Source: an uncultured Flavobacteriaceae bacterium (GTDB lineage Bacteria > Bacteroidota > Bacteroidia > Flavobacteriales > Flavobacteriaceae). Taken from it: DNA of 64,000 bases. The translations under genes and the position numbers were made by a program. How positions within the stretch are numbered: position 1 is the first letter of the stretch; each line of letters begins with the position of its first letter. The stretch spans positions 1 to 64,000 of the forward strand of contig CANLWG010000007.1 of assembly GCA_947494715.1 (NCBI GenBank), read 5' to 3'. The notes below the pieces were generated by a model, which was not told the origin of the DNA, made no database searches, and saw only the letters and a list, made by a program, of their open reading frames with translations. Below are positions 35,742 to 59,291 of the stretch, one piece after another.

Positions 35742-36032
35742 TTATTTTACCTGAACGTTGCTTTTAACCCCTTCTACAAAAACTTTTGCGGGCTTGAATG
35801 CCGGAATGTTGTGGGCCGGTATCTTTATAGTGGTATTTTTGGAGATATTTCTGCCTGTTTTTTCGGCTCTGGTCTTGATAATAAAACTTCCAAAACCTCT
35901 CAAGTAAACATTGTCCCCGCTTTCCAATGAGGATTTCACTTCTTCCATAAAGGATTCTACAGTGGCTTGGACATCTCCCTTTTCAATTCCCAGTTTGTCT
36001 GAGATTTTCGCTACAATTTCAGCTTTCGTCAT
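35742..36032 (-). CDS. hup: HU family DNA-binding protein
   Basis: Histone-like dimeric DNA-bending protein, 96 residues. MTKAEIVAKISDKLGIEKGDVQATVESFMEEVK forms the helical part, and LRGFGSFIIKTRAEKTGRN leads into the beta-arm with ISKNTTIKIPAHNIPAFKPAK. It keeps the proline that intercalates at DNA kinks. It heads a short minus-strand operon with the 29-codon basic gene, divergent from mutY. Confidence 0.96.
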   Translation of the reverse strand: MTKAEIVAKISDKLGIEKGDVQATVESFMEEVKSSLESGDNVYLRGFGSFIIKTRAEKTGRNISKNTTIKIPAHNIPAFKPAKVFVEGVKSNVQVK

Positions 36033-53756: not shown

Positions 53757-53796
53757 GTGTGTAAATCTTATACACTTTTCTTGTTTTTTTACACAC
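53757..53796. promoter_or_regulatory. Putative enhancer: GTGTA/TACAC sites before paralog 1
   Basis: An inverted pair GTGTA (53759-53763) and TACAC (53771-53775) with a 7-bp spacer, followed 14 bp later by TACACAC (53790-53796), which is the exact reverse complement of GTGTGTA at 53757-53763. The same parts in the same order occur before the second paralog at 54543-54590. The site is 150-190 bp before the start codon, suitable for an NtrC-type activator. The remaining part of the 223-bp gap holds only the sigma-54-like element. Confidence 0.5.
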
Positions 53797-53882
53797 TGCT
53801 ATACAGTTATATCAGAAATTACGAATCTATTAAAACTCAGTTTGTCAATTAGTTACGATGGTTTTAAGAAAAAAAACCACAT

Positions 53883-53898
53883 TGGCACTGTTTTCCCA
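53883..53898 (+). promoter_or_regulatory. Sigma-54-like -24/-12 element before paralog 1
   Basis: TTGGCAC (-24) with GG at 53884-53885 and CC at 53896-53897, ten bases between, against the consensus TGGCAC-N5-TTGC. The -24 half is a perfect match, but the -12 reads CC instead of GC. The start codon is about 52 bp downstream. Supported mainly by the adjacent NtrC-type regulator. Confidence 0.4.
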
Positions 53899-53949
53899 TT
53901 AGTATAGGTGATTAACAAAACAAATACATAATTTAAAAAACACAAGAAA

Positions 53950-54270
53950 ATGAAAAGAGTAATGTTAGCTGCAGTAATGGCCTTAGGTACAATGACTGCT
54001 TTTGCACAAGAAGAAGTAACCGAAGAAGCAACTGCAAACTTGGAAGAAGTTGCCGCAGAAGCTGTTGAGGCTCAAGATGGTTTTAACGAAGTAGCTTTGG
54101 AAGAGTTGCCGGAAACAATTACACAAGCTTTGGAAGCTGCTCACCCAGGCGCTTCAGTAGCAAAAGCTTATATGAACGAGCAGTCTCAATACAAACTTGA
54201 AGTAACCAAAGAAGATGGCGAGCAAGTTGAGTTATATGCAGATGCCGAAGGCAATTGGATAGAGATGTAG
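53950..54270 (+). CDS. Secreted acidic PepSY-like protein, paralog 1
   Basis: A 106-residue secreted protein: signal peptide MKRVMLAAVMALGTMTAFAQ, an acidic Glu/Ala-rich stretch (about 21-50), then a PepSY-like/DUF2874-type domain (LPETITQALEAAHPGASVAK; YKLEVTKEDGEQVELYADAE) ending GNWIEM. It is a clear paralog of the gene at 54719: the two share the ELPE-x-(I/V)T start, the AY-x-NE-x-x-QYKLEV strand and the WIEM end. Likely periplasmic or surface exposed. Adjacent to a two-component system. Confidence 0.85.
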   Translation: MKRVMLAAVMALGTMTAFAQEEVTEEATANLEEVAAEAVEAQDGFNEVALEELPETITQALEAAHPGASVAKAYMNEQSQYKLEVTKEDGEQVELYADAEGNWIEM

Positions 54271-54323
54271 TTTAAGCACGTATTATCCATAGAGTTAATT
54301 AATATATTGCTTAGTTTGGTTTT

Positions 54324-54354
54324 AAAATCCCCGGCCTAATCGCCGGGGATTTTT
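54324..54354 (+). terminator. Terminator of paralog 1
   Basis: Twelve-bp stem AAAATCCCCGGC/GCCGGGGATTTT with loop CTAATC and a T run, 53 bp after the stop. It makes the two paralogs separate transcription units. Confidence 0.93.
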
Positions 54355-54542
54355 ATTGGATACCAATTTGAATAAACATGTAAGTCATCTCCACATAGGT
54401 ATTTATTTAGTGGGAAGACAGAATCTTACAAAAGTTAGCTGCACCACGTCTACGTTCAGCACCAGTAAAAAACACGGCCGATCATTCCTTTCAGCCCAAG
54501 GTTTTTTCATTCGTAAATTACCTTTGGAATATGCTACCTCTA

Positions 54543-54590
54543 CGTGTATATTTTACACGGTTCAAAAACCAAATACCCAAAATTACACAC
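54543..54590. promoter_or_regulatory. Putative enhancer: GTGTA/TACAC sites before paralog 2
   Basis: CGTGTA (54543-54548) and TACACG (54554-54559) form an inverted repeat with a 5-bp spacer, followed 25 bp later by TACACAC (54584-54590). This repeats the layout before paralog 1; the IR-to-TACACAC distance differs by 11 bp, close to one helical turn. The rest of the 54355-54718 gap holds a 79-codon frame that I rejected. Confidence 0.5.
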
Positions 54591-54654
54591 TATAAAATAT
54601 ACCCAATAACTTTTAATCAATTGATAACGAGATATTTAAATCTGATTTAGATTC

Positions 54655-54670
54655 TGGTATCATATTTTCT
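54655..54670 (+). promoter_or_regulatory. Sigma-54-like -24/-12 element before paralog 2
   Basis: CTGGTAT with GG at 54656-54657 and TC at 54668-54669, ten bases between. It is a weaker match than the element before paralog 1 but is placed similarly, about 50 bp before the start. Confidence 0.3.
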
Positions 54671-54718: not shown

Positions 54719-55021
54719 ATGAAAAAATTAGTTTTTGTTTTAGCATTGTCTCTCGGAAGTCTAACAGCTTTTGCTCAAGATACAGATGAAGCCCAAGTTG
54801 ATGCATCCGAGGCCGTTGCCGCTCAGGATGATTTTTCGGAAATTGCAGCTAGCGAATTGCCAGAGGCAGTAACCGCAGCAGTAGCCAAAAATTACCCGAC
54901 TGCTACCATAGACAAGGCTTACGTTAACGAATCAAAACAATACAAACTGGAAGTTTCTTTGGAAGATGGAACCTCGGGAACTTTGTATGCGGACGAAAGT
55001 GGTAACTGGATCGAAATGTAA
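54719..55021 (+). CDS. Secreted acidic PepSY-like protein, paralog 2
   Basis: A 100-residue secreted protein: signal peptide MKKLVFVLALSLGSLTAFAQ, an acidic Asp/Glu/Ala linker, then the same PepSY-like domain as paralog 1 (LPEAVTAAVAKNYPTATIDK; YKLEVSLEDGTSGTLYADES) ending GNWIEM. The ATG at 54719 gives a clean signal peptide; an in-frame TTG at 54710 only adds three residues. The linker is shorter than that of paralog 1. Own terminator downstream. Confidence 0.85.
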   Translation: MKKLVFVLALSLGSLTAFAQDTDEAQVDASEAVAAQDDFSEIAASELPEAVTAAVAKNYPTATIDKAYVNESKQYKLEVSLEDGTSGTLYADESGNWIEM

Positions 55022-55471: not shown

Positions 55472-56845
55472 ATGCCAAACATCTTGATCATCGAAGACGA
55501 TGCCGCCTTTTGTCAAATGCTACAGAAGTTTTTGATTAAAAGAGGGTATGATGCAGAAATTTGTTACCATGCCACGGATGCCAAGGAAAAGTTTAGCGCC
55601 ACTGATTTTGATGTTATTTTGACGGATTTGCGTTTGCCGGATTATGATGGGATACAGTTATTGGCCGATATAAAGAAGGTAAAGCCGAAAACCCCTGTTA
55701 TTCTTATGACGGGCTATGCGGAAGTAGGCACGGCGGTGAAGGCTATGAAGCAGGGCGCTTACGACTATATTTCCAAGCCCTTTACTCCGGAGGAAATTAT
55801 CATGATCATTGAGAATGCATTGAGGGCAAAACCATCCCAAGTAACCCATGATACTCCGAGTGTACAAAAACTTAGGCACAAAGAGACGCCTTCGGAACGG
55901 AAAAAGAGTTCAGATGAAAAGACAATTTTGGGAGTCAGTGATGCTTCAAAGAAGTTGGTTGATTATATTAAACTGGTAGCACCTACTGATATGTCCGTGT
56001 TAATTACCGGTGATAGCGGGACCGGCAAAGAAGTTACTGCCAGAGCAATACATAATAATAGCAAACGCAAGGATTACAACTTTGTGGCCGTGGATTGTGG
56101 AGCTATTCCAAAAGAGCTGGCTTCAAGTGAATTTTTTGGTCATATAAAAGGAAGTTTTACGGGGGCCATTGAGGACAAAACCGGAAACTTTGAAGCAGCC
56201 AATGAAGGCACCCTTTTCTTGGATGAGGTAGGGAATCTTTCCTATGAAAATCAAATCCAATTGCTAAGGGCCTTACAAGAACGGAAGATAAAACGTGTAG
56301 GTAGTACCAAGGAAATCCATGTGGACGTTCGTATCATAACGGCTACAAACGAAGATTTGACGCTTGCCGTTCAAAAGGGAAGCTTTAGAGAAGATCTGTA
56401 CCATAGGTTAAACGAGTTTTCCATTCAAATTCCATCCTTGGAAGAAAGGTTTGAAGATTTGATTTTGTTTGCAGACCATTTTTTGGCGAAGGCCAATGAA
56501 AATTTGAATAAAGAGGTTCACGGCTTTTCAACTCAGGTATGGGAGGCCTTTCGACAATACCACTGGCCTGGAAATCTAAGGGAGCTTCAAAATATAGTCA
56601 AAAGAGCGGTGCTTTTAACAGTAGGTGATGAAGTGAAGATAGAAACGCTTCCTAAGGAGGTTTTACAATCGAACCATTATAGCACAATAAAGCCCGAAAA
56701 TTTTTCTAAATCCGATTTTGAGAAAGATCGTATCATCAAAGCGTTAAAAAAGACTAACTTCAATAAGTCGAAAGCCGCAAAATTATTGCAGGTGACTCGG
56801 AAAACACTCTACAACAAAATCAACCACTATAACTTGGACTTATAA
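55472..56845 (+). CDS. Sigma-54-dependent response regulator, NtrC family
   Basis: A 457-residue NtrC-type activator. Receiver domain about 1-120, with acidic pocket E8-D9-D10 and phospho-acceptor D52 (ILTDLRLPDYDG). AAA+ domain about 150-385 with Walker A GDSGTGKE (180-187), the sigma-54-contacting loop GSFTGA (227-232, a known variant of GAFTGA) and Walker B LFLDEVG. C-terminal Fis-type helix-turn-helix NKSKAAKLLQVTRKTLYNKI. It would drive sigma-54 promoters from upstream enhancers. It converges on and overlaps the hybrid kinase gene by 26 bp, its likely partner. Confidence 0.96.
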   Translation: MPNILIIEDDAAFCQMLQKFLIKRGYDAEICYHATDAKEKFSATDFDVILTDLRLPDYDGIQLLADIKKVKPKTPVILMTGYAEVGTAVKAMKQGAYDYISKPFTPEEIIMIIENALRAKPSQVTHDTPSVQKLRHKETPSERKKSSDEKTILGVSDASKKLVDYIKLVAPTDMSVLITGDSGTGKEVTARAIHNNSKRKDYNFVAVDCGAIPKELASSEFFGHIKGSFTGAIEDKTGNFEAANEGTLFLDEVGNLSYENQIQLLRALQERKIKRVGSTKEIHVDVRIITATNEDLTLAVQKGSFREDLYHRLNEFSIQIPSLEERFEDLILFADHFLAKANENLNKEVHGFSTQVWEAFRQYHWPGNLRELQNIVKRAVLLTVGDEVKIETLPKEVLQSNHYSTIKPENFSKSDFEKDRIIKALKKTNFNKSKAAKLLQVTRKTLYNKINHYNLDL

Positions 56846-59291
56846 CCAACCTACTTTCCATTTCAGAGGTTAAACGGTGTACTTTTTTCTCTAGCTGTTG
56901 CAAATCGTGAAGAAGGGCATTGGTATTCATTGAATCTGGGGTTGCTACTTCCAATCGTTCCAAAAATGGCACGCAATTTTCTACCCTAAGCTGCCTGAAC
57001 ATAGGCAACATACGATGGGAGACATGATTTATTTGAGCATAATCTTGAGCTTTGATTGTTTCTTCCAATAGCCCCATGTTGGCTTGTGTATCCCTTAAAA
57101 AAGTATGTAATACTCCAGAAATGGCATCTTCGTTTTTTCCCAAGAAGGAATGAATAATATCCAAGCTATAGCTTTGGGGCCTTTCTTCTTTGGTAGGGCC
57201 TTCGGGTTTTGCGTCGGTCACTTTTTTAGTCTCCATGCCCATTAACCTCAAAACAGCTATAAGTTCACCTTTGGAGAAAGGTTTTTGTAGCACTTGGTCA
57301 AATCCTTTTGAGGTATAGGTATCCACTTCAAAATCCCTCCTACCGGTCATGGCGATAATAGGTTGGCCTTTATAATGTTTGTATTGACCCGACTTCAATT
57401 TTTTCAAGACTTCAAAACCACTTGTTTTGGGCATTTGTATGTCCGTTAAAACCAAATCGTAAGCCAAATGGGAATCCTCTTCTACGAATAAAAAATTGGT
57501 AAAGATATGGGCGATAATTCCTATACTTTGGGCCAATTCGCGTAACATACCCAATAGAGCGGTATCATCATCAATAATAAGCATGCTAAGTTTGGGCACC
57601 AAATAACGCATGTTCTGCTCTACGGGCCCTAATTTTTGCTGCGTTACTTCCAAGGGTAATTCAAGGGTAAAGGTACTGCCTTGGCCAACCTTACTTTCCA
57701 AGTTCAACGAACCGTTGAGTAATTCCGTCAACTTCTTGGATATAGTGAGTCCCAGGCCATAACCTCCAAATTTTCTTTCGGTATCTGTATCGGCCTGGGC
57801 AAATTCCTTAAAAATAAGTCCTTGCTTTTCTTTGGGAATTCCTATGCCTGTGTCCATAACCGCTATCCTTGCTATCACTTCTTTTTTACCTTCCTTAATG
57901 GTATTTGCCACAATCCTTATATGCCCTTCTTCGGTAAACTTAAAGGCATTTCCAATAAGATTGGTAAGTATTTGACGTAGCCGGAATGGATCTCCCAATA
58001 CTGTTTTTTGAAGCGAAGAATCTATTTCTAGATATAATTTTAGCTTTTTATATGTATAAAGCGACTGCAGGTTTTCGGCGGTTTCTTGGATAAGATATGC
58101 GGGTATAAAGGGTATTTTTTCAATCTTTAATTTGCCCGCTTCCAATTTTGAAAAATCCAAAAGATCATTTACCAGATTACCTACATACCCTGTTGAGGAG
58201 GTTATGTTCTTTAGATACCCTTCCTGTTTTTTGGTTAGATCCGTATTTTCCATGAGTTCCGTATACCCTTGTATCGTGTTTAAAGGAGTTCGTAGATCAT
58301 GGCTTACCGTAGAAATCAATTGTTCTCTACTCTTTAATAGAGATTCGGAATATTTTTTCTCTTTTTCCAATTTTTGCCGGTAGGTCTGCACCTTCCAAAA
58401 ATCGCGGTTGATTAAAAAAGTAAAAAGCCCGACAACAATGAAACCTAATAAGGCCGCCAAACCGGCCAAACGAATACTTTTCCGTAACGCGGATTGCTTT
58501 TTTAGGTTATCGTTATAGGTGTTCAGTATTACTTCCTGCTCCAATGCGGAAACAATATTACGTAGTTGTTGAGAGAGCTCTAGGTCGGTACGGTTAATTT
58601 CATTTTCCTTTTGGGCCAAGAAGCGCTGTGTCTTTGCATCGTTTATTTTGGCCTCCGCCAAAAGAGCCTTGGAAGCGTTAAGAACGGAATCTATTTTTTC
58701 GGAGTCTGGAATGGACGAAGTATCAGCAGGAATGTTCTCGTTTAAATAAGCGACCCAATCTTCCAATACCTTTCGTTTATACGGTGAGAGTTTTTCAGGG
58801 TTCTTTTCAAAATTATACACCGTAAGTTTTCCGAACGATGCCTCCATTTTCCGAAATTCCTTGAGCACATTATCTATAGAACTGTAGTTCTCATTTTTCG
58901 CCTTTAAGCTGCGAAGTTCATTGCTATTGGCTACTTTCTGTTCCAGTAACAACTTTACGCTATCCAATTTCGCTTTTTGGGAGGGATCGATGGCGAGTTG
59001 TTTAAGGGAATCTATTTCATTAAAAACAGAATCGATTTTTTGGGCGTACGCATTAAAATTCTGTTTGGTCTTGGTCTGCAATGCCAATTTGGACAGGCTT
59101 TCCGCTTCGTAAATTTGGGTTACCAAGGAACCGGTCCTTAATAACTTGGTGTCACTTTGGGCAGAGGTTTCGTTATTTACCAAGACCTGTATCTCGGAAT
59201 AGATGAAGTATCCAGCTCCCAAGGCAAGTACGCATAGCATCAAATAACTGATGGCCACCTTAAACGTAAATCTATTCTTGGATTTATCCAT
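56820..59291 (-). CDS. Hybrid sensor histidine kinase with receiver and Hpt domains
   Basis: An 823-residue membrane kinase. TM1 at about 11-31, an extracytoplasmic helical sensor (about 32-272, coiled-coil type), TM2 at about 275-294, HisKA with phospho-acceptor H331 (TVSHDLRTPLNTIQGYTELM), HATPase with N447 and GIGIP/FGGYGLGL boxes (about 435-548), a receiver domain with D617 (YDLVLTDIQMP), and a C-terminal Hpt domain with H759 (HVSHRMLPMFRQL). The order gives a H-D-H relay that would end on the adjacent response regulator. It overlaps that gene tail to tail. Confidence 0.95.
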   Translation of the reverse strand: MDKSKNRFTFKVAISYLMLCVLALGAGYFIYSEIQVLVNNETSAQSDTKLLRTGSLVTQIYEAESLSKLALQTKTKQNFNAYAQKIDSVFNEIDSLKQLAIDPSQKAKLDSVKLLLEQKVANSNELRSLKAKNENYSSIDNVLKEFRKMEASFGKLTVYNFEKNPEKLSPYKRKVLEDWVAYLNENIPADTSSIPDSEKIDSVLNASKALLAEAKINDAKTQRFLAQKENEINRTDLELSQQLRNIVSALEQEVILNTYNDNLKKQSALRKSIRLAGLAALLGFIVVGLFTFLINRDFWKVQTYRQKLEKEKKYSESLLKSREQLISTVSHDLRTPLNTIQGYTELMENTDLTKKQEGYLKNITSSTGYVGNLVNDLLDFSKLEAGKLKIEKIPFIPAYLIQETAENLQSLYTYKKLKLYLEIDSSLQKTVLGDPFRLRQILTNLIGNAFKFTEEGHIRIVANTIKEGKKEVIARIAVMDTGIGIPKEKQGLIFKEFAQADTDTERKFGGYGLGLTISKKLTELLNGSLNLESKVGQGSTFTLELPLEVTQQKLGPVEQNMRYLVPKLSMLIIDDDTALLGMLRELAQSIGIIAHIFTNFLFVEEDSHLAYDLVLTDIQMPKTSGFEVLKKLKSGQYKHYKGQPIIAMTGRRDFEVDTYTSKGFDQVLQKPFSKGELIAVLRLMGMETKKVTDAKPEGPTKEERPQSYSLDIIHSFLGKNEDAISGVLHTFLRDTQANMGLLEETIKAQDYAQINHVSHRMLPMFRQLRVENCVPFLERLEVATPDSMNTNALLHDLQQLEKKVHRLTSEMESRLVISPSYSG

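Follow-up and report, generated by a model that had tools for sequence, protein, structure and literature searches.

The window analysed here, a 64,000-nt stretch of a 5.97-Mb marine flavobacterial genome, carries two small PepSY-like genes in tandem, each preceded by the same series of promoter-like elements, beside genes for an NtrC-type response regulator and a hybrid histidine kinase. Positions below are those of the window; P1 and P2 denote the first and second PepSY-like gene with its upstream elements, and negative distances are counted from the GG of the promoter box.

53757–53775, forward strand: P1 enhancer palindrome GTGTGTAAATCTTATACAC, half-sites 1 and 2 (GTGTA at −125, TACAC at −113)
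53790–53796, forward strand: P1 half-site 3, TACACAC (−94)
53800–53805, forward strand: P1 half-site 4, TATACA (−84)
53830–53856, no strand: P1 IHF-type dyad, centre 53843 (−41), class A
53882–53897, forward strand: P1 sigma-54-type box TTGGCACTGTTTTCCC, GG-N10-CC
53950–54270, forward strand: P1 PepSY-like gene, 106 aa, with a signal-peptide-like start as read from the sequence
54324–54353: 12-bp perfect hairpin 3′ of P1, ending in five T's, a likely intrinsic terminator
54543–54559, forward strand: P2 enhancer palindrome CGTGTATATTTTACACG (GTGTA at −112, TACAC at −102)
54574–54579, forward strand: P2 half-site 3, degenerate, TACCCA (−82)
54584–54590, forward strand: P2 half-site 4, TACACAC (−72)
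54613–54639, no strand: P2 IHF-type dyad, centre 54626 (−30), class B
54654–54669, forward strand: P2 sigma-54-type box CTGGTATCATATTTTC, GG-N10-TC
54719–55021, forward strand: P2 PepSY-like paralog, 100 aa when counted from its ATG (in the ORF list it begins at TTG, 54710)
55472–56845, forward strand: NtrC-type response regulator, candidate activator (REC, sigma-54 AAA+ with GSFTGA loop, Fis-type HTH)
56820–59291, reverse strand: membrane hybrid histidine kinase (predicted helical periplasmic sensor, HisKA, HATPase, REC; an HPt-like C terminus is only suggested)

The regulator matched PF00072, PF00158 and PF02954 above their Pfam cut-offs, and its GSFTGA loop was at least 98% conserved in a 74-row alignment. 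Profile matches placed HisKA, HATPase and REC domains in the kinase, the periplasmic part of which was predicted to be all-helical (structure model, mean pLDDT 74) and was well conserved (60% mean column identity, 34 rows). Long alignments of the kinase C terminus to the TorS and EvgS models, below their cut-offs, suggested an HPt-like region; Pfam gave no HPt match there. The regulator and kinase genes converge, their 3′ ends overlapping by 26 nt (56820–56845). The P1 and P2 proteins, both with signal-peptide-like starts by eye and hence probably secreted, comprise one PepSY/BLIP-like unit each, scoring 19.3 and 21.1 bits, respectively, against PF11396 (PepSY_like), below its gathering cut-off of 28.3. 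The hairpin 3′ of P1 indicates that P1 and P2 are likely to be separate units. A GC-rich 11-bp hairpin followed by a T-rich stretch, identified by eye 3′ of P2 (55064–55091), is a possible terminator between P2 and the regulator gene.

An earlier note on this DNA had described, before each paralog, an inverted GTGTA/TACAC pair, a TACACAC and a GG-N10-YC element, and our recomputed coordinates and spacings agreed with it to the base. In P1, GTGTA (53759–53763) and TACAC (53771–53775) are 7 nt apart, TACACAC follows 14 nt after the pair, and the GG (53884) lies 87 nt beyond it; the corresponding values in P2 are 5 nt (GTGTA 54544–54548, TACAC 54554–54558), 25 nt and 65 nt (GG 54656). The two promoters thus differ by 11 and 22 bp, as claimed, and the layout is far beyond chance. 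The bare GTGTA-N5–7-TACAC pair occurred at 11 places in the genome versus 12 for a reversed control. Seven of the other nine places lay within ORFs and two were intergenic, with an open frame 115 bp away (minus strand) for one and 340 bp away for the other. The concern that the motif might occur at random frequency therefore held for the bare pair, although not for the full module. Because the bare palindrome, at background frequency, is no evidence by itself, it was rejected as such and related loci were used instead.

A regulator-based scan yielded 80 loci, of which 74 were flavobacterial (L013–L086) and six were distant (L087–L092); the latter had no synteny and were excluded before counting. 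The kinase gene was convergent, on the opposite strand, in all 74 flavobacterial loci, PepSY-like genes (one to five copies) were present in 70 and DUF4301 in 59. PepSY-like genes were missing from four loci. In three, the locus is truncated at a contig end; the fourth, L042, retains regulator and kinase and truly has no PepSY-like gene, which counts against the explanation favoured below. Six loci (L014, L015, L020, L022, L053 and L057) have four to five PepSY-like copies in a row, some separated by 65–76-bp spacers without a promoter module of their own. The promoter sample drew on 71 loci (the window plus 70 related ones) and comprised the sequence before 159 PepSY-like genes, including a few weak paralog matches (for example, L063_9655, L064_8398, L066_4242, L053_2935 and L057_3058). 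A GG box was present before 147 of the 159 genes, scoring above 9 in 141 and 3–9 in six.

The sigma-54-like layout proposed from the window was supported by this comparison. The box TTGGYAYYATWTTYYC (TTGGYAYN5TTYC) scored above 9 in 141 of 159 upstream regions (shuffles: mean 0.3, maximum 1), mostly 50–90 bp before the start, and a matrix trained only on 39 sites from distant loci recovered it in 49 of 52 near genes with more than 150 bp of upstream sequence (null 0.45, maximum 1). Within the TGGYAY −24 context, the GG was invariant (141/141), as was the A after the next base, and the −12 C was kept at canonical spacing in 126 of 141 boxes. The G at −13 is nearly invariant in the textbook sigma-54 consensus. 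Here, the GC of the canonical −12 element was not the rule: the −13 base was T in 102 boxes, C in 38 and G in one, and a strict box pattern applied to all 159 upstream regions gave T in 98, C in 17 and neither G nor A. Three P1 promoters (L024, L025 and L084), among the six with box scores of 3–9, had a perfect −24 element and no −12 C. Of the 12 genes that lack a box, eight have just 65–76 bp of upstream sequence, bounded by the previous gene or, for one of them, by a contig end; they may be transcribed by read-through from the upstream neighbour. The Bacteroidota housekeeping promoter TAnnTTTG, raised previously as an alternative, was found between box and start in none of 146 genes (null 5.8) and in the last 150 nt upstream in 11 of 146 (null 19.5), and was not supported. 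The pattern of conserved bases points to a sigma-54-type promoter with a variant −12 element.

Genome-wide, the TTYC box showed no excess (15 places versus 15 in the control). Canonical TTGGYAYN5TTGC sites numbered 26 versus 10 in the control, and 20 of the 26 lay within ORFs longer than 150 aa, so that no regulon was inferred from them. Downstream of another sigma-54 activator, one canonical TGGCACN5TTGC site (L155:10773, contig C7 of the window's genome, G000) stands about 82 bp ahead of a gene labelled GreA-like by eye; it recurs 82 bp before the homologous gene in L220, a relative from another genus. Among other homologs of this gene, no canonical site was found before nine with a settable start, and two were not parsed. 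A lineage-wide loss of the −12 G was thus not supported; rather, with canonical TTGC beside another activator in this genome and one relative, the TTYC form looks regulon-specific.

The genome has one rpoN gene, with an intact RpoN box. In the portions of PMC5505868 consulted, the sigma-54 HTH residues E378 and R383 crosslink to promoter DNA. In the window's genome, R383 is kept and the E378-aligned residue is Val. We sampled 51 loci (that of this genome, the 30 with the best scores and a further 20 chosen among 80 genomes; L012 and L158–L207), in which 43 HTHs were read in the right frame, 42 with Ile and one, that of the window's genome, with Val; three were in the wrong frame and five were not parsed. 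Since the search pattern required the Arg of R383, the R383 result is valid for the window's genome only. Ile or Val at the E378-aligned position is common to the phylum sample, and by itself it is no explanation for the regulon.

Conservation of the enhancer upstream of relatives' genes was also apparent: of the 147 PepSY-like genes that have a GG box, 58 also have a GTGTA..TACAC pair before it (shuffles: mean 0.36, maximum 3). TACAC half-sites peaked at about −113, −103, −93, −83 and −72, with GTGTA near −124. This ladder was phased to the GG with a period of 10.3–10.4 bp (R 0.65; 88 of 143 genes kept after thinning), supporting the idea that the spacings hold the sites on the same face of the DNA. 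Exact palindromes were missing from many P2-type promoters, in which half-sites remain. When 60 family genomes were searched without starting from the regulator, the strict form GTGTGTAANNNTTACACA, drawn from an alignment that included L026 (= G092), occurred in four genomes, and the control pattern once. In three of the four the site lay about 190 bp before a PepSY-like gene, and in the fourth (L211) it did not; the window's own genome has no site of the strict form. Upstream of the regulator gene itself, neither the palindrome nor a correctly spaced box was found (0 of 65 cases), which gives no indication of direct autoregulation through such sites. A box with spacing one base longer occurred in five of these 65 (null 0.4, maximum 3), all Arenibacter; the five sequences are nearly identical and were taken as one inherited chance match.

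Between enhancer and box we found a dyad, TTAA-N4-YTGATWATCAR-N4-TTA, that is absent from the earlier note and fits the IHF consensus, WATCARNNNNTTR, on both strands. Exact one-strand matches to WATCARNNNNTTR lay between enhancer and box in 83 of 147 genes (null 2.4), and 45 more had exactly one mismatch (null 32.4, weak by itself); in the window, P2 matches exactly and P1 with one mismatch. A dyad matrix scored above 6 in 136 of 147 (null 5.7, maximum 11). The dyad symmetry suggests a homodimeric HU/IHF-type protein. The genome has two HU/IHF-family genes, and one of them, a candidate for the dyad binder, lies in the window near 35766–36032 on the reverse strand.

The dyads fell into two registers, with centres at −41.1 (SD 0.4, 84 genes; class A) or −30.5 (SD 0.5, 51 genes; class B), leaving one outlier among the 136 scored. 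The mean shift was 10.6 bp, or 11 nt in the window, whose P2 promoter lacks 11 nt between dyad and box when aligned to the module profile. Half-site-to-dyad distances were about −72, −52 and −42 in both classes, 1–2 bp looser in class B. As read from these alignments, class B is class A minus one helical turn between dyad and box, with enhancer and dyad forming a near-rigid block. Class A accounted for the first PepSY-like gene in 63 of 71 loci; where the second was scored, it was class B in 36 of 40. The earlier comparison of the two TACACAC sites consequently stands as to spacing but not as to identity, because TACACAC is half-site 3 in P1 and half-site 4 in P2; the 11- and 22-bp differences both follow from a single one-turn shift, which is the true displacement of the module. 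What the comparison adds to the earlier description is threefold: an IHF-type dyad, a −13 G that is consistently lost, and one shift that explains both spacings.

To gauge regulon size, we used a 148-position profile of the module (R1), a sequence-only model built from 61 class-A promoters. The profile search of the window's genome returned two strong matches (E 7.8e-18 and 3.1e-10) and then a partial one at 0.018; its filters were stricter, and some weak matches may be lost. That only these two promoters were convincing, near-exclusive in the genome and beside a syntenic regulator and kinase, fits the earlier proposal of a self-contained regulon in which a hybrid kinase and an NtrC-type regulator serve two targets. 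Across the 60 family genomes, there were 30 matches with E ≤ 5.9e-4 in 18 genomes, the training set overlapping these genomes at G082, G092, G107 and G118 (= L014, L026, L055 and L032) and also including the window. For 15 of the 18 best-per-genome matches, a PepSY-like gene lay in the same 3-kb locus, together with DUF4301 and/or a regulator homolog; it was directly downstream in 14 and, in L258, about 0.6 kb on, behind a second match. The other three were L259, L261 and L264. In L259 (G104, about 1501–2195), the module precedes a regulator homolog with no PepSY-like ORF; here the gene may have been lost, the module may drive a small RNA, or it may control the regulator directly. When related loci were thinned to 36 regulator clusters (<85% identity), 35 had PepSY-like genes, with the box in 35, the dyad in 34 and the exact palindrome in 23.

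Together, these data make it highly probable that a phosphorelay encoded at this locus controls P1 and P2 as a regulon of two sigma-54-type promoters. In the mechanism we propose, the membrane hybrid kinase, with its helical periplasmic sensor, would phosphorylate the adjacent NtrC-type regulator. A regulator dimer would bind the GTGTAA-N3-TTACAC palindrome, and further protomers or dimers would occupy two TACACA half-sites lying roughly two and three turns beyond it. An HU/IHF-family protein, probably homodimeric given its symmetric site, would bend the DNA at the TTAA..TGATWATCA..TTA dyad, bringing the regulator's AAA+ ring onto sigma-54 RNA polymerase at the TTGGYAYN5TTYC box and thereby opening both PepSY-like genes. 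Relative to the box, the block of enhancer and dyad sits in one of two registers separated by one helical turn, class A at P1 and class B at P2. The elements, with their conservation, spacing, synteny and near-exclusive presence in the genome, are direct observations; the identity of the binder, activation rather than repression, dependence on sigma-54 and bending are the parts of this scheme that we infer.

Several other readings would account for some of these features. The module could be of the sigma-54 type with another activator of the genome binding the ladder, the adjacent regulator controlling something else. The genome encodes six strong PF00158 proteins, the one adjoining P1 and P2 and five others, of which three retain an intact G[AS]FTGA loop (four intact loops in all); however, the sites track this locus, 15 of 18 best-per-genome matches lying with a PepSY-like gene, and we regard a different activator as improbable. 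Two of the six (L140 and L143 in G000) have altered loops, GAFTSA and GAFTDA, and may lack sigma-54 activation. Slightly less probable still is that the TTGGYAYN5TTYC box is some other conserved element, such as an ECF-type promoter or an operator. The missing −13 G, along with the canonical TTGC site beside another activator in this genome and one relative, speaks for such an element. Against it are the invariant GG (141/141), the C (126/141) and the TGGYAY −24 element, an rpoN gene with an intact RpoN box, an adjacent sigma-54 activator gene and an enhancer phased to the GG. A 2025 survey (PMC12316311), in the passages available, gives the sigma-54 consensus as TGGCACN5-7TTGCT and names validated E. 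coli promoters that also deviate at −12.

The sites alone are silent on the sign of regulation, so the regulator might repress both genes from them, or act both ways. Dual activator and repressor roles exist among such regulators, but sites placed 70–125 bp ahead of the GG, as here, are typical of activation, and the GSFTGA loop is retained across the 74-row alignment, leaving repression very improbable. Mere shared ancestry of duplicated intergenic DNA, devoid of function, would suit paralogs that are duplicates in tandem, as P1 and P2 are. Yet in an alignment of 27 of 39 P1-labelled upstream regions (12 left out), majority-base cover was 0.89 in the palindrome, 0.82 in half-site 3, 0.70 in half-site 4 and 0.81 in the box, compared with 0.48 in the spacer after the palindrome, 0.57 in the middle stretch (dyad included) and 0.67 in the leader. 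In addition, the geometry holds within about 1 bp in 135 of 136 dyads, and the elements persist across the 36 regulator clusters, so that the chance of ancestry without function is close to negligible.

A two-promoter regulon of this kind resembles nifH-type promoters, in which an IHF site lies between a sigma-54 promoter and an NtrC/NifA-type enhancer. Shared features are the order of enhancer, bend site and box, helical phasing, an NtrC-family AAA+ regulator, the TGGYAY −24 element and the −12 C at canonical spacing. Unlike nifH-type promoters, those described here have T or C rather than G at −13, a TACACA ladder, a symmetric IHF-type dyad and two natural registers one turn apart. PepSY-like (DUF2874) genes are also found near, or listed with, sensor-kinase genes elsewhere in Bacteroidota, at the HaeSR/DUF2874 locus of Porphyromonas gingivalis and at BT0922–BT0923 of Bacteroides, according to parts of PMC3764172 and PMC10434189. 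The HaeSR/DUF2874 system differs in that 'NtrC' is absent from the accessible text of PMC3764172, where 'sigma' comes up twice, once for an ECF factor and once for a sigma-E regulator; no link to sigma-54 was evident. Relative to the BLIP-fold DUF2874/PepSY_like proteins (PDB 3due, 3db7 and 3u1w), as described in excerpts of PMC2954215, the proteins here have one unit of about 65 residues, whereas BVU2987 has a tandem unit. The same excerpts state that DUF2874 proteins are thought to inhibit partners; that the PepSY-like products feed back on the kinase or act as envelope inhibitors is a tentative guess. A literature search confined to open-licence PMC papers returned no sigma-54/PepSY regulon in flavobacteria and little on sigma-54 regulation in Bacteroidota.

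More speculatively, and with doubt outweighing belief, these boxes might represent a family-wide sigma-54 promoter subtype with T or C in place of the −13 G. A homodimeric HU/IHF bend, together with an activator array of four half-sites, would perhaps make up for this change. Such promoters would be readable by a Bacteroidota sigma-54 with Ile or Val at E378 and locked off without bending, the two registers setting different outputs of the paralogous envelope proteins.

We conclude that the locus is a genuine, conserved regulon of two sigma-54-type promoters, in which the −12 element is unusual and the register differs by a near-rigid shift of one turn, with binding and expression following the scheme above as its probable mode of action. 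It brings together a regulator gene, the sequence code that the regulator probably recognises, a probable bend site and a seemingly complete set of two target promoters. With the same module present in many species in two registers one turn apart, it constitutes a natural experiment in helical phasing, and promoter scans that demand a −12 TTGC would miss such promoters in the Flavobacteriaceae.
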